64,000 nucleotides of DNA, taken from Methanolinea sp. (lineage in GTDB: Archaea > Halobacteriota > Methanomicrobia > Methanomicrobiales > Methanospirillaceae). Position 1 is the stretch's first letter. Every line of letters starts with the position of its first letter. The stretch lies in NCBI GenBank assembly GCA_030055515.1, contig JASFYI010000001.1, positions 310,001 through 374,000 on the forward strand. The letters are read 5' to 3'. The notes beneath the pieces are model-generated. The model worked only from the letters and a program-made list of their open reading frames with translations. It made no database searches and was not told where the DNA came from. Of this stretch, positions 3,930 to 9,523 are shown one piece after another. Both the position numbers and the translations under genes were made by a program.

Positions 3930-5027
3930 TCACTTCAAAAAGTCGATCTCGAACTGCCTCTGGACTTTCGGGGTAATTTTTTCGTTTCTCCCATATATTT
4001 GTGGCGACCGGACACCGGTGACGACGAGCATCGTCCGCATCTTGTTCTGCATGTTCGGGTCGATCTGTGCACCCCAGATGATCCGCGCGTCCGGCGAGAT
4101 GCGGTTGTAGACCTCCTCGAGGACACCCTCCGCCTCCTCCATCGTCATGTCCGGGCCGCCGACCACGTTGACGAGCGCCGCGTGGGCGCCCGAGATGTCG
4201 ACGTCGAGCAGCGGGGAGCGGATCGCCTTCTTGACAGAGTCCGCGGCCTTCTCCTCGCTATCGCTCTCGCCGACCCCGATCATGGCGACACCTCCCTTCT
4301 CCATGACCGTGCGCACGTCGGCAAAGTCGAGGTTCACGAGTCCCGGGAGGGTGATGAGCTCGGTGATGCCCTTGACGGCCCGCATGAGGACCTCGTCCGC
4401 GACCTTGAACGCCGCGTAGAGCGGGAGTTTCGGGACCACCTCGAGCAGCCTGTCGTTGGGCACCACGATGACGGTGTCCGCGACGTCGCGGAGCCGCTCG
4501 AGGCCGGCCTCCGCGTTCTCCATGCGGATGACACCCTCCGCCGTGAACGGGAGCGTCACGACGCCTATCGTGAGGGCCCCCTCGTCCCTCGCGGCCTTCG
4601 CGACGATCGGCGCGGCGCCCGTCCCGGTCCCGCCGCCGAGCCCGACGGTGATGAAGACCATGTCGCACCCCGCGACCGCCCGCCTTATGTCCTCCTCGTT
4701 CTCGAGCGCGGCCTCCTCGCCAATCTGGGGAATCGACCCGGCCCCGAGGCCCCGCGTCCTCTGCCTCCCGATGAGGATGCGCTGGTCAGCAACCGTGCGC
4801 GAGAGGTGCTGGGCATCCGTGTTGATCGCGATGAGCCGTGCGCCGTGGATACCTTCCTCCTTCATCCGGGTGATGGTGTTCGAGCCGCTCCCCCCGCACC
4901 CGATCACCGCGATCTCGGTCTTGAGCTCCCGAAGTACCTGGTCGAGGTCGTCGTTGTTCTTCCTCGTGTCCTGAAGTTCCTTGCTTGCTCTGGACAGTGC
5001 CTCTTCCACGATGGATGTCATCGCCAT
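3930..5027 (-). CDS. ftsZ: Cell division GTPase FtsZ
   Basis: This tubulin-like GTPase forms the division ring. The 365-residue protein has the nucleotide-binding GCGGSGSNT near residue 45, the tubulin signature [10 protein letters not shown], and the T7-loop region in the [12 protein letters not shown] segment. It ends with a short tail ([12 protein letters not shown]). The start is ATG 5027, or ATG 5021 two codons later; either overlaps the dtdA stop, indicating translational coupling. It heads the ftsZ-secE-spt5 run. Which archaeal FtsZ paralogue it is was not determined. Confidence 0.96.
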
Positions 5028-6337
5028 AGGTATTTCTCCAGTCCCGGGATGTGGATCTTCTTCTCTCTCGTGACAATGACCATTTCCGGCGTGACCTCCC
5101 TGTCCCCCGCGAGGACAGACTCCCCGTTCATCAGCCGGCTGAAGAGGGGTCCCCTTGGAACACCGAGCGCCTCGGCCCTCGCCGCATCGAACCCCCTCTT
5201 CCGGATCACTATGGAATCACCCGCGATCGACGTACTCTCCCCTCTACGTAAGATGTTTACACATAAGCTTATTAAATGATGCAATACCCTCTCCCTGCAT
5301 GATTCTACCGTGATGAACCGGGGCATTGCCTTGCTCCGCGGCGTCACTATCCTTGCGACAGGGATGTTTTCGATGCCTTCGATGAACGCCCGGGAATCGG
5401 ACCTGAGGACTTCCTCGAGCAGGTCGGGGGGGACATCGACGGGCACGGGCGCCCCATCCGGCCATGTCCCGTGGAACGTGACGTTGCTGTCGCCCGCGTA
5501 GTCTCCCGCGAGGGCTTGGACCTTCCTGTACGCGTCGAAAGAGAGGTTCCCCATGCGGATGAAGTCGTTTTCGGGAACGGTGGGGATACCCTCCCGGGAG
5601 AGGAGCTGCTCGAGCCTCCTCGTCTCCGCCGGCGGGAGCGATTTCCGGTCGATGTAGGCGGCGACTGCCCCGGTCCTCTCGACCATGTCCGAGACGAGGT
5701 CCCTGTCGAGGAGGGGGACGTCACGGCTGTGGACGATGTGGCCGAATGCAGCCCTGCTGTGGAGTGCGATGTGGGTCTGCCTCGCCGCGTAGTGGGTGCC
5801 CCCGAAGCCCACGACCGGGATGGTGTCGCCGGGTTCCGCACAGAGGATGCTCCGCGCGACTGCGGCGGCCGCCCCGACGTCCCTCCACTCCCTCTCCGTG
5901 CTCCCCACCTCGACGAAGAACGACGGGGTACCCACCTCGGTGGGCCCGTGGTGGGTAACCTCGTACGCGACCCTGTATCCCGGCGGGGCGTTGCGGGAGA
6001 GGCCGAGGAGGACGGCACGCATCCACGCGGGGGCAGCACGGGCAAGTGACCTCTCGAGACCCCCGAATTCCGCGGGCCCGAAGTTCCCCGTCACGTGGAC
6101 GGTGAGGACCGGCACGGGTTTCTGCGAGGAGTGGCGGGAGAGGAATACGATGAGGTCTGCGTCGACCTCCCTGTCGATGCGGTCATGGAATATCAACCTG
6201 TCCTCGATCCTGTGGTGCACGAGGCGGTGCTCCTCGAGGGGATAGGGAGTGTGGGGTCTAGAGAGGAGCGAGAGGAGGGCGTCGTGGATGGTGCTCCCAC
6301 CGGGATCGGAGAGGGAACTCACAAGGGCGATGTCCAT
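5018..6337 (-). CDS. dtdA: D-aminoacyl-tRNA deacylase, archaeal type
   Basis: DtdA hydrolyses D-amino acids from mischarged tRNA. The protein (439 residues from ATG 6337) begins [17 protein letters not shown] and has the family features of alternating serine/histidine-rich segments ([39 protein letters not shown]) and the [14 protein letters not shown] block expected for its zinc site. An in-frame ATG at 6352 was not chosen: the TATA element at 6366-6375 would put the transcript start near 6345, downstream of that codon. Its end overlaps ftsZ by 10 bp. Confidence 0.93.
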
Positions 6338-6365
6338 TTCTCCCACTAACATGGGGTTCTAGGGT

Positions 6366-6375: not shown

Positions 6376-6602
6376 GGAGGCCCCGGCAGGGGACGGGACG
6401 AGGCCACTGCAGTACACACAGGGTAAGCGCGGCGATTTCCCCTGATTCCATTGTGATTCACCGAGGACCCCGGGACGCGGTGTCAACGGGAGTCCGGTGT
6501 GGATTTTGCCGCCCGGGATGTCGCCGGTCTCCCCCCTGCCGGGTACCGGTTCCAAACACCCGTTTTCCCGGCCGGAGACGGGTTTTCCGCCGGTAAAACA
6601 GG

Positions 6603-6617
6603 AAAAATTTATATAAT
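6603..6617 (+). promoter_or_regulatory. Strong orphan promoter (BRE and TATA) with no ORF downstream
   Basis: AAAAATTTATATAAT is among the most TATA-like sequences in the window and is preceded by a purine-rich BRE-like stretch (CAGGAAA). Transcription would start near 6640 on the plus strand. No plausible coding sequence follows: only peptides of about ten codons or fewer begin nearby. The only neighbouring gene downstream is the 3' end of the oppositely directed DUF2070 gene. A small RNA is the natural reading, but it is inference. Confidence 0.55.
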
Positions 6618-6639
6618 GGACTGTGCAACAAGTAAAGTG

Positions 6640-6860
6640 AAACCAGCATGGTCCAGGGCGGGAAATGCTGATACTCCATTTGATCATTGGCTGATACTCT
6701 CATGCATCGATGATCTTGTTCCGCCCGGATCATGGTGGTACTTGTCCTCGGATACCATTTCCCCGGGAAGGGACATCCACCTGTCTTTCGTCCGCGGGTA
6801 GTACTCCCGCACCGTCATTCCCGCAATGGTTTCCCGGGCCTCCCCGTTCCTCTCGCGCTC
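6640..6860 (+). other. Gene-free stretch, candidate small RNA downstream of the orphan promoter
   Basis: The gap from 6338 to 6860 (523 bp) holds no supported protein gene. Its first part is the dtdA promoter region; the second part follows the orphan promoter. Within it the 10-mer GCTGATACTC occurs twice (6667-6676 and 6690-6699), 23 nt apart, each containing CTGA. That recalls D-box spacing of C/D guide RNAs, but no convincing C box in the right order was found, so no RNA class is claimed. Confidence 0.3.
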
Positions 6861-8597
6861 TCACCCGAGGACGAGGTAGGCGATGAGGGAGAGGAGGACG
6901 ACGAGGAGGAGCATCCCCGCGCTCAGGAACGGGATGAAGACGAGCATCGTGTTGACGGTGCTTGCCATCTGCGCTATCCTGTGCGAGCCGAAGATCCGAA
7001 CCCCCTCGCACCACGCGGTGCTCCCCGCCGCCTCGGCGGGAGAGAGGTCGCGGAGGGCCTCCGAGAGGCCCCTGTCGACCCACGGGATGATCTCATCCAC
7101 CGGGACGTGGAGGCCGATCGGGTTCCTGCCCTTCACCGTGTTCACGACGTGGGAGTCGGTTGTCATCAGTTCTGCCTCGTCCACCCGCGAGAGGACGTGG
7201 TCCCGTATCCTCTCCCTCACGCCCGCCTCCATGTTGTTCCCGTCGAAGAGGATGTACGCGGTTGTCTGCCCGTGGACCCTGACAACCGCGACCTGGATAC
7301 CGTTGTCGCCAAAACCCTGCTCGCGGGTGAAGGGGACCTTCACCTGCGATATCCCGAGCTCGAACGGCCCCGTCGCGCTCCCGTGCATCTCTCCTATCGC
7401 CCGCAGCGCGGCCCTGTAGTATTCCATCGCGGGACGCGTTGCAGGGAGGACGTACGAGGCGTTTCCGGCGGAGCAGTTGTGGGCATCGACGAACCCCACG
7501 TTCTCGAAGAACCTGTGCCCTTCCCCCATGATGGTCATGCCGATGTTGAAGTCGATGTCCTCTGTCCTTTCCGGCGACCGCGTGCCCACGATGAGGAGTG
7601 TCCCGTCGAAGGCCTGGCAGAGGAGGGAGACGTGCCCCTCAGAGAACCGCGCCGAGCGCGTCGCGTGCGGGGAGAAGCGGAGGGACCCGCGCGTCCCCCT
7701 CACCGCCTCCACGAGCTTTGCGATCTCCCGCTCCGAGACCGGGTTGAAGTCGTGGGTTGCCGCGCCGTGGGGGACCATCACCATCTCCTCGAACCCCGCC
7801 TGCATGCCCCTCGGGAGGTTTCCCCCTCCGATCTCCCCGACCGGCCCGGGATGGATGTTCGGGATCGTGATGACGAGTCCCCGGCGCTCCCCCCTCCGGA
7901 AGAAGATGCTCACCTGGGGGATAGTGACCTCCTCCCCGATCCTCTCGAAGAACTCCTCGAGCGCCCGTGACCCGTCCGTCAGGTGCGCGAGGAAAGAGTT
8001 TACGAAGTCGAGCCCGCGGACGCGGAACGCCCTGTACATGGGCCTGTCGATGAGCCAGATGAGGAGGGAGAAGCCCCCGAGGAAGAGTACCTGGAGGAGG
8101 AGGGCGAGCGGGAGGAACTGTGGCGGGAGGAGAAAAGTCGCGATGGCGATCCCGGCCGCGCTCTGGATTCCCGCGGGAACGATCATCCGCGCGATCCGGT
8201 AGTCGGCGATCGCGACGAGGACGAGGAGGCGGAGACCGAACATGAACCCGAGCGCGATCGCGTACGAGATCCCGGCGTGGGCGGGCGAGATGAGAATCCC
8301 GCAGAGGACTATCAGGACCCCGAAGATAACGCACGAGAGGGCGAGGAGGGCCGACCTGTTCCACGTCATCGGCCTCCCGAGGAGGCTCACCAGCGGCTTC
8401 GTCGCGACGAACGCGGCGAGGGCGGGGACCGAGAAGAGGAGCGTTCCGAAGAAAGGTACGGTTCCGTGCAGGAGCGGGATGCCGTCGATGAGGAGCCCGG
8501 TGATCGCGATGATGGCGATGGAGTCGGGCCAGGAGGGCGCGTTGAAGAGGAACCGCGCGAGCCTCTCGAGCCTCGCCTCCCCGCCCGCGACAGACAT
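6861..8597 (-). CDS. DUF2070 family membrane protein
   Basis: This 578-residue archaeal protein of unknown function has about seven predicted transmembrane segments in its first 220 residues (for example IAIIAITGLLIDGIPLL and SALLALSCVIFGVLIVL). A large soluble domain follows, and a C-terminal hydrophobic anchor ends LVVLLSLIAYLVLG. The soluble part has conserved-looking polar motifs (NIHPGPVGEIGGGNLP, HGAATHDFNP, FVDAHNC) that could bind a metal. The ATG at 8597 is 2 bp after the pfkB stop. A longer open frame upstream is an artefact of GC-rich sequence over the kinase gene. No reaction is known to me. Confidence 0.85.
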   Translation of the reverse strand: MSVAGGEARLERLARFLFNAPSWPDSIAIIAITGLLIDGIPLLHGTVPFFGTLLFSVPALAAFVATKPLVSLLGRPMTWNRSALLALSCVIFGVLIVLCGILISPAHAGISYAIALGFMFGLRLLVLVAIADYRIARMIVPAGIQSAAGIAIATFLLPPQFLPLALLLQVLFLGGFSLLIWLIDRPMYRAFRVRGLDFVNSFLAHLTDGSRALEEFFERIGEEVTIPQVSIFFRRGERRGLVITIPNIHPGPVGEIGGGNLPRGMQAGFEEMVMVPHGAATHDFNPVSEREIAKLVEAVRGTRGSLRFSPHATRSARFSEGHVSLLCQAFDGTLLIVGTRSPERTEDIDFNIGMTIMGEGHRFFENVGFVDAHNCSAGNASYVLPATRPAMEYYRAALRAIGEMHGSATGPFELGISQVKVPFTREQGFGDNGIQVAVVRVHGQTTAYILFDGNNMEAGVRERIRDHVLSRVDEAELMTTDSHVVNTVKGRNPIGLHVPVDEIIPWVDRGLSEALRDLSPAEAAGSTAWCEGVRIFGSHRIAQMASTVNTMLVFIPFLSAGMLLLVVLLSLIAYLVLG

Positions 8598-8599
8598 CC

Positions 8600-9523
8600 C
8601 TATCCCCCTTCCGGGCTGCCCGATCCCCTCTCCGGGTGGGAGCGCTCGGGGAATTCCCCGAAGGACTCCGTGTACCGCGACTCCACCATCTCCCACGTGG
8701 GAAGGTTCGTCTGGCAGCCGGGGACCTCGATCGCGAAAGAGGCAGTCACGCTCCCCACCCTGCAGCAGTCGGGGAGGGAGTACCCCCTGTAATACGCCGC
8801 GAGGAACCCCGCGCGGTACGCGTCGCCAGCACCGGTCGGGTCCCTCACCTCCCTGTGCACCGCGGGGATGTGAATCCGGCCCGTTTTCGTGTAGAGGTCG
8901 CTCCCCCCTGCACCCGCCGTGAAGACCGCGACGGGAACCCTCGCGGCGAGCGATTCCCTCGATATCCCGAGCATCCTGCACATGGCATCGACCTCGTGCT
9001 GGTTGGCAAAGAGGATCCCGACCCTCGAGAGGATCGCTTCCAGCTGGCCAGGCGTGTACCTGTGGAGGTCTTGTCCCGGGTCGAACGTGCAGAACCCGGC
9101 GTTCGCGGCAACCCTCACGTTGAAATCGGGGTCTGCCGTCGCCATGTGCACGAACGGGAGCGCGGGCGCAGGTGCGGTGGCAAAGATCTCCGATGCACCC
9201 CACTCGAAGAAGGTGATCTGGTCTCCCCTCTCGTTCGTGAACATGAACGCGGTCGGGGTGTGCGCATCCTTCACGTGGAAGAGCTGCTGGCGGACGCCGA
9301 GGGACTTCTGCCACCGGTCGTAGTCACTCCCGGGGAAGTCGTCGCCCACGGCACTCACGAGGGTGCACGGGACCCCCAGCCTCGCGATCCCCGCCGCGAT
9401 GTTCGCTGCCCCCCCGCCGTAGGAGACCCACCGCCTGATGATCGTGACAGAGCTGTTGGGAGGGGGAAAATCCCGTACCGTGCAGATGTGGTCAAACGCC
9501 GTGTGCCCGACGACGTAGATCAC
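8600..9523 (-). CDS. PfkB-family sugar/nucleoside kinase
   Basis: This ribokinase-family enzyme uses ATP to phosphorylate a sugar or nucleoside hydroxyl. The 307-residue protein has the N-terminal family region [16 protein letters not shown] (about residues 34-50) and the C-terminal signature [13 protein letters not shown] with the catalytic aspartate. It resembles archaeal nucleoside kinases in size, but the substrate cannot be fixed from sequence. It overlaps the UPF0212 gene by 4 bp and is followed 2 bp later by DUF2070, so the three are translationally linked. Confidence 0.9.

Follow-up and report, generated by a model that had tools for sequence, protein, structure and literature searches.

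A short stretch of the window (the whole 64,000-nucleotide piece of Methanolinea sp. DNA analysed here), from 6637 to about 6750 on the + strand, reads as a discrete and conserved small-RNA gene with its own promoter. With a probability of roughly 0.78, we consider its product to be a trans-acting sRNA with two seeds that regulates the synthesis of the archaeal sheath by base pairing, as judged from sequence. The sheath is an amyloid tube that surrounds the cells of these methanogens, and its regulation is described as open in the available part of the published account (PMC10593813). The predicted transcript has the features of the sRNA class, namely its own promoter, a discrete structured unit encoded away from its targets and a conserved, accessible seed whose complementary target sites are conserved as well. 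The preliminary description of this stretch had suggested either an independent small RNA with base-pairing repeat arms or an RNA antisense to the 3' end of the DUF2070 operon; the first suggestion is backed by conservation, structure, promoter and target complementarity, whereas the second did not survive. The coordinates of the features are collected in Table 1.

Table 1. The sRNA gene, its predicted parts and its neighbours in the window.
Feature	Position	Strand	Basis or remark
BRE/TATA promoter of sRNA	6603..6617	+	sequence and conserved TTTATA core
sRNA gene (predicted)	6637..6750	+	CM R1 match 6638-6749; fold z -4.4
Closing stem, 5' arm	6642..6664	+	one mismatch position, 6646
Closing stem, 3' arm, TTCCGCCCGGATCATGGTGGT	6719..6739	+	
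Seed 1, TGCTGATACTCC	6666..6677	+	antisense of GGAGUAUCAGCA
Seed 2, CTGATACTC-TCAT-GCATC	6691..6708	+	antisense of SH mRNA 5'-terminal hairpin
DUF2070 membrane protein gene	6861..9314	-	PF09843, E 5.9e-180; convergent with sRNA
D-aminoacyl-tRNA deacylase gene	5018..6352	-	PF04414; neighbour on the other side of sRNA

The BRE/TATA element of the preliminary description is borne out: in the promoter sequence AAAAATTTATATAATGG (6603-6619) the TTTATA core is kept across relatives in an alignment of 20 genomes, in which the start block TGAA[AG]CCA and the stem ends are conserved as well. The predicted start, GTGAAACC, lies at 6637/6638, about 26 nt past the TATA centre, and the predicted 5' end of the Methanolinea sRNA is GUGAAACC; the 3' end is uncertain between 6740 and 6750, and the predicted transcript would be roughly 110 nt long. 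The CM R1 match in the window genome (locus G000:C1:316638) has an E-value of 1.2e-22, obtained with a model built partly from that very sequence. The earlier statement that the stretch holds no ORF fails mechanically, with ORFs crossing it (e.g., 6499-6801, +), but stands biologically, as length changes among relatives ignore the reading frame.

In the predicted fold, (U)GAAACCAGCAUGGUCCAGGGCGG ... CCGCCCGGAUCAUGGUGGU forms a long closing stem that encloses GCUGAUACUC twice and displays two copies of CUGAUACUC. The 10-mer that had been reported to recur 23 nt apart is indeed found at 6667-6676 and 6690-6699 (GCTGATACTC). The + strand from 6635 to 6740 folds with a z of -4.4, none of 200 shuffles being equally stable, and the opposite strand folds more weakly (z -3.1). 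In a 20-sequence alignment (19 distinct sequences), 97.9% of the cells of the closing stem and hairpins are paired, and sliding the stem partners lowers the pairing to 25-45%. Covariance, proposed earlier as a check, is seen in 9 cells with two-sided changes, compared with an average of 3.2 after shuffling (none of 500 shuffles reaches 9), and the pairs that carry these changes are few, 3 of 23 and all in the closing stem, a number also reached by 70 of 500 shuffles. Position 6646/6735 of the closing stem is mismatched in 20 of 20 aligned sequences though both sides vary, and may therefore be a required kink. The helices drift among relatives; the two loops and GCAUC stay fixed.

The sRNA was recognized in 30 of the 108 genomes of the family, spread over 10 of its 17 genera (three of these genomes were found only with a second model, two of them weakly), and a search of 232 genomes of the order gave it in no further family. 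A DNA search of 101 genomes (the window genome and 100 relatives) detected the region at E <= 6e-9 in 21 genomes, and the conservation in sister species that had been asked for is found in 11 of the 12 same-genus genomes (E <= 5e-12), the twelfth being 76% complete. The covariance model, built from 20 sequences, matches 27 of the 108 genomes in 7 of the 17 genera, and an order-wide search returned the same 27 among the 232 genomes. Four of these matches, in genera g14 and g16, score only 28-34 bits; there the helices are almost wholly changed, and the fold plan and both loops are intact. In L045, the second loop reads CCGG-CUGAUACUC-CCGG. The second model, a sequence profile over 23 sequences, added G014 of g3 (E 5.3e-9) and two further cases that are weak yet plausible, G138 of g12 (E 0.001) and G018 of g7 (E 0.003), at a level at which G047 gives a match of similar E-value without the loops. 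By eye, G138 and G018 have a promoter and a long stem around one CUGAUACUC and one GGUACUCUC...CAUCAAC, and the places of g7 and g12 in the ten-genus total rest on the reading of these single sequences. Over 23 sequences from 8 genera, 30 columns are invariant, 24 of them within GCTGATACTC, CTGATACTC and GCATC; loop invariance is partly by construction, some of these sequences having been found via the double loop word, and GCATC was outside that word. This pattern is more in keeping with an sRNA that base-pairs than with a pure scaffold. A scan of 84,980 species for the double word returned 48 stretches, from Methanolinea, Methanoregula(ceae), Methanomicrobiales and one Euryarchaeota record, together with scattered bacterial matches that were taken as chance, since the pattern allows some. 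A genome that already has an sRNA contains a second double-word match, of the wobble type (L298, G043:C25:3659-3694).

The principal predicted targets are the leaders of genes for SH sheath proteins. In the window genome, one of the 28 sites of the 8-mer GAGTATCA outside the sRNA falls in a leader that precedes the gene of a secreted protein (GGTTGATGCTGAGAGTATCAGCATGAAATGTAGGAGGAAAAAAATG), and this SH target (G000:C5:31266) is located away from the sRNA gene. The word GAGTATCAGCA is present in 86 of the 108 family genomes, in some of them clustered about 1 kb apart; these clusters are tandem arrays of a single gene family whose members share this type of leader. In 49 distinct SH leaders the element stands just upstream of the Shine-Dalgarno sequence (SD). 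These leaders were found with GAGTATCAGC(A), the seed complement, and conservation inside this word is by construction; columns outside it are conserved as well (T in 42 of 49 at -9, G in 45 of 49 at -8), and the conservation of TTGATGCTGA, which precedes the word, is likewise not by construction. The hairpin complementary to seed 2 reads GAUGC-UGA-GAGUAUCAG. A TATA-like box lies roughly 35-45 nt upstream of GAGTATC, from which the hairpin AUGCUGA-GAGUA-UCAGCAU is expected at the mRNA 5' end, where it should sit in SH transcripts. The mRNA hairpin shows a compensatory change in the leaders of L099 and L125, which have GUGCUG/CAGCAC at this place.

The 18-mer GATGCTGAGAGTATCAGC occurs at 51 places in 35 of the 232 order genomes (control: 0), one place being the antisense of an sRNA; it is found only in the family of the sRNA, in 12 of 40 genera, which include all ten sRNA-bearing genera as well as g9 and g17, where the sRNA was not found. 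One 18-mer match and five double-word matches on viral contigs were rejected, none resembling the sRNA or an SH leader. The 18-mer is found in 0 of the 39 genomes of genus g5, which we take to be Methanoregula. According to the available part of the published survey, SH proteins are present in all Methanospirillum and Methanolinea and in no Methanoregula (PMC11576556). The element-bearing gene of M. hungatei (G034) encodes a protein of 377 aa and 40.5 kDa with C257, C271, D43 and K363, the same features as given in the available portions of the reports on MspA/SH of M. hungatei JF-1 (PMC6242892, PMC10593813). MspA is the experimentally identified sheath amyloid of M. hungatei, and by these matching features L258 would be the published protein. 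The window-genome protein L078 matches L258 with 45.7 bits in phmmer and with 100% probability in profile comparison, and the element-bearing genes encode proteins of the SH (MspA-type) sheath family. The strongest doubt about the link between sRNA and sheath comes from Methanospirillum (g12), in which the target element occurs widely (8 of 12 genomes) and the sRNA was recognizable in G138 only, 1 of 12 genomes searched; in M. hungatei itself, the element is present and the sRNA was not found.

In 19 of 19 genomes with both parts (one leader each, from those in hand), seed 2 is predicted to pair with the SH leader of the same genome at -26.0 to -38.0 kcal/mol (z -4.4 to -10.7), and in G024 and G025 the match is uninterrupted over 18 and 20 bp, respectively. 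A seed change in G043 keeps the pairing by turning U-A into C-G, and in G018, G138 and one G024 leader it is kept by G-U wobbles; in G018 and G138, GCAUCAAC or CAUCAAC stands opposite GUUGAUG(C), outside the search word. These pairing-preserving changes would be supportive of a duplex, not proof of it, because they are few events in related sequences. In the proposed mechanism, the long closing helix displays the two copies of CUGAUACUC, and seed 2, extended in the 3' direction (CUGAUACUC, then a few nt and GCAUC), would pair over about 18-20 bp with the SH mRNA 5' hairpin. First contact is probably made loop to loop, between UACUC of the sRNA and GAGUA of the mRNA, and would then open the mRNA hairpin.

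The SH duplex ends upstream of the SD, and simple SD blocking therefore does not apply. Covering the 5' end could either open a protective hairpin, with less SH made, or shield the end, with more SH made, and repression or destabilization is only slightly favored. The opposite sign, in which the sRNA stabilizes SH mRNA against 5'-to-3' decay and represses the second target, is a possibility to be taken seriously, though we hold it to be less probable than not; it is the preferred explanation with the SH effect reversed, and the confidences in the two are not additive. It would agree with the location of the element at the predicted extreme 5' end and off the SD, and with the two-loop sRNA154, which, in the available part of its description, stabilizes some targets and blocks the ribosome-binding site (RBS) of another (PMC5867862). 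Among the SH genes of M. hungatei, Mhun_2271 is transcribed most according to the survey as available (PMC11576556), and we infer that this is the element gene of G034, another point in favor of stabilization. Against it, the leader already forms a stable hairpin that could protect the message unaided, and paralogues keep the stem without the seed site.

Of the 45 SH matches in G000, G024 and G034, 26 loci were inspected. The exact element is present at four, a wobble form (GGGTATC) at one and the core alone, in another hairpin, at one (G000:C5:38144); the other 20 have no site, and most SH paralogues therefore escape. In two of these 20, the G024 paralogues L328 and L330, the stem TGCTGA/TCAGCA is kept and a GAAA loop replaces the GAGTA site, and this leader stem may have a role of its own. 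Only a few of up to about 30 SH paralogues have the seed site, and others keep the leader stem alone. A rather doubtful extension of the sheath-regulator reading is that the sRNA switches the composition of the coat, silencing the major sheath subunit when its level rises, while minor paralogues with other caps are used and the 167-aa protein discussed below is tuned alongside; if so, an RNA would decide the composition of an archaeal amyloid coat.

The second predicted target is the mRNA of a 167-aa protein (MADFVQ...) present in five genera, in some genomes in more than one copy. Its gene begins 0-6 nt past GAGUAUCAGC, which contains or adjoins its SD, and GGAGUAUCAGCA comprises the SD and spacer; the site in the window genome is at G000:C2:402395. 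In each of 9 genomes, seed 1 is predicted to pair with the gene start (-19.3 to -24.3 kcal/mol), and in 6 of them it pairs more strongly than seed 2. Pairing of seed 1 (UGCUGAUACUCY) over 10-14 bp with SD and spacer should block ribosome binding, and repression of the 167-aa protein is the favored outcome. The predicted fold of the protein is confident (pLDDT 91.7), with no confident match in PDB or viral models and no Pfam, NCBIfam or PHROG family above noise. Downstream of the 167-aa gene, two genera encode a short protein that contains a hydrophobic stretch (MENEFVQIFEMLVALVAAIAAYWQHRQK...) and for which no Pfam family was found (L097:2182-2658, L109:2187-2672). The 8-mer GAGTATCA has 30 sites in the window genome against 4 for the reversed word, an enrichment set aside as evidence, most sites lying outside leaders and codon bias being able to explain it. 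The complement AGAGUAUCA covers codons 2-4 of the FtsZ gene (L058, G000:C1:604338-604345), which could link sheath and division or be due to chance, about one such site being expected by chance on our estimate. A dispersed repeat of the window genome, up to 1.2 kb long and of 94-98% identity (L056, L060, L068), probably a mobile element, has GAGTATCA near one end.

It is improbable that the shared words are DNA operators, bound by a transcription factor at GATGCTGAGAGTATCAGC-like sites in the SH and sRNA genes, with the RNA likeness incidental. In favor of an operator, the SH element is an imperfect palindrome near a promoter and the sRNA gene has a similar site on its opposite strand, but in both genes the site is at or downstream of the predicted start, its orientation is constant (sense in SH, antisense in the sRNA) and it lies within a conserved RNA fold, whereas the site of the 167-aa gene is not palindromic and overlaps the SD. 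The changes in G018, G138 and one G024 leader, moreover, are of the kind tolerated by G-U wobble. Even less credence is given to an RNA whose two identical loops serve to bind a protein dimer, the mRNA match being secondary. The RNAs 6S and CsrB offer the comparison for protein binding, and two identical displayed loops, invariant over 8 genera, would suit such a role; the word extends asymmetrically, however, with TGC before seed 1 and GCATC after seed 2, as complementarity to the mRNAs requires.

The genomic setting bears on the DUF2070 antisense proposal. The convergent neighbor named in the preliminary description is confirmed as DUF2070, and all 23 strong CM matches are convergent and syntenic with it. 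In g3, g14 and g16 the sRNA gene adjoins adenine deaminase, several having a response-regulator gene on the opposite side, and in g7 and g12 it adjoins dihydroorotate dehydrogenase (neighbor identities come from Pfam on one or two loci per kind, the rest from matching translations). The sRNA gene moves while the seeds stay, and DUF2070, although syntenic in 23 genomes, would be a neighbor and not a target. A cis-antisense role toward the 3' end of the DUF2070 transcript, for which the synteny would speak, is very improbable, as the structured RNA stops about 120 nt short of the DUF2070 stop codon and the homologues in five other genera adjoin other genes. Rfam, at gathering and relaxed thresholds, gave nothing credible at the locus, the best sub-threshold match being SNORD111 (18.6 vs. 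46 bits); a C/D or H/ACA guide role on rRNA or tRNA gained no support, with no family reaching its Rfam threshold, and the CUGA and GAUGA words that are present have, by eye, an order and spacing unfit for C/D.

Base-pairing archaeal sRNAs are known as a kind, and comparisons by description place the trans-acting sheath sRNA proposed here among them. In the available part of its account, sRNA154 of Methanosarcina mazei (M. mazei) is likewise a discrete, lineage-conserved intergenic sRNA of a methanogen, with two displayed loops and several target mRNAs, of which one is bound at the RBS (PMC5867862). It serves nitrogen regulation with nif and gln targets, whereas the window sRNA has identical loop copies directed mainly at sheath-protein leaders. 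Similarly, sRNA162 of M. mazei combines two targeting domains with RBS masking and 5' UTR pairing, as far as its published account is available (PMC3510493). As described there, it differs from the window sRNA in using a single-stranded linker and its 5' end, in targeting a transcription factor operon and in acting partly as a cis-antisense RNA. The predicted targets belong to the SH/MspA proteins of Methanospirillum and Methanolinea; in the open-licence literature searched, no regulator of a sheath gene is described, no sRNA for the sheath or for Methanolinea was found, and neither this sRNA family nor its sheath targets were found. The sRNA is a concrete candidate for such a regulator, with named seeds and targets, and among archaeal sRNAs it would be one of the rare cases whose target set is predicted for many genera. 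In bacteria, the trans-acting sRNAs MicA, RybB and MicC use a short seed against the leaders of outer-membrane protein mRNAs. The window sRNA would work in a like manner, with a seed against the leaders of abundant envelope proteins, no homology being claimed; unlike them, it is archaeal and its predicted target is an amyloid sheath protein. It would thereby provide, in Archaea, a parallel to the bacterial sRNAs that control envelope proteins.
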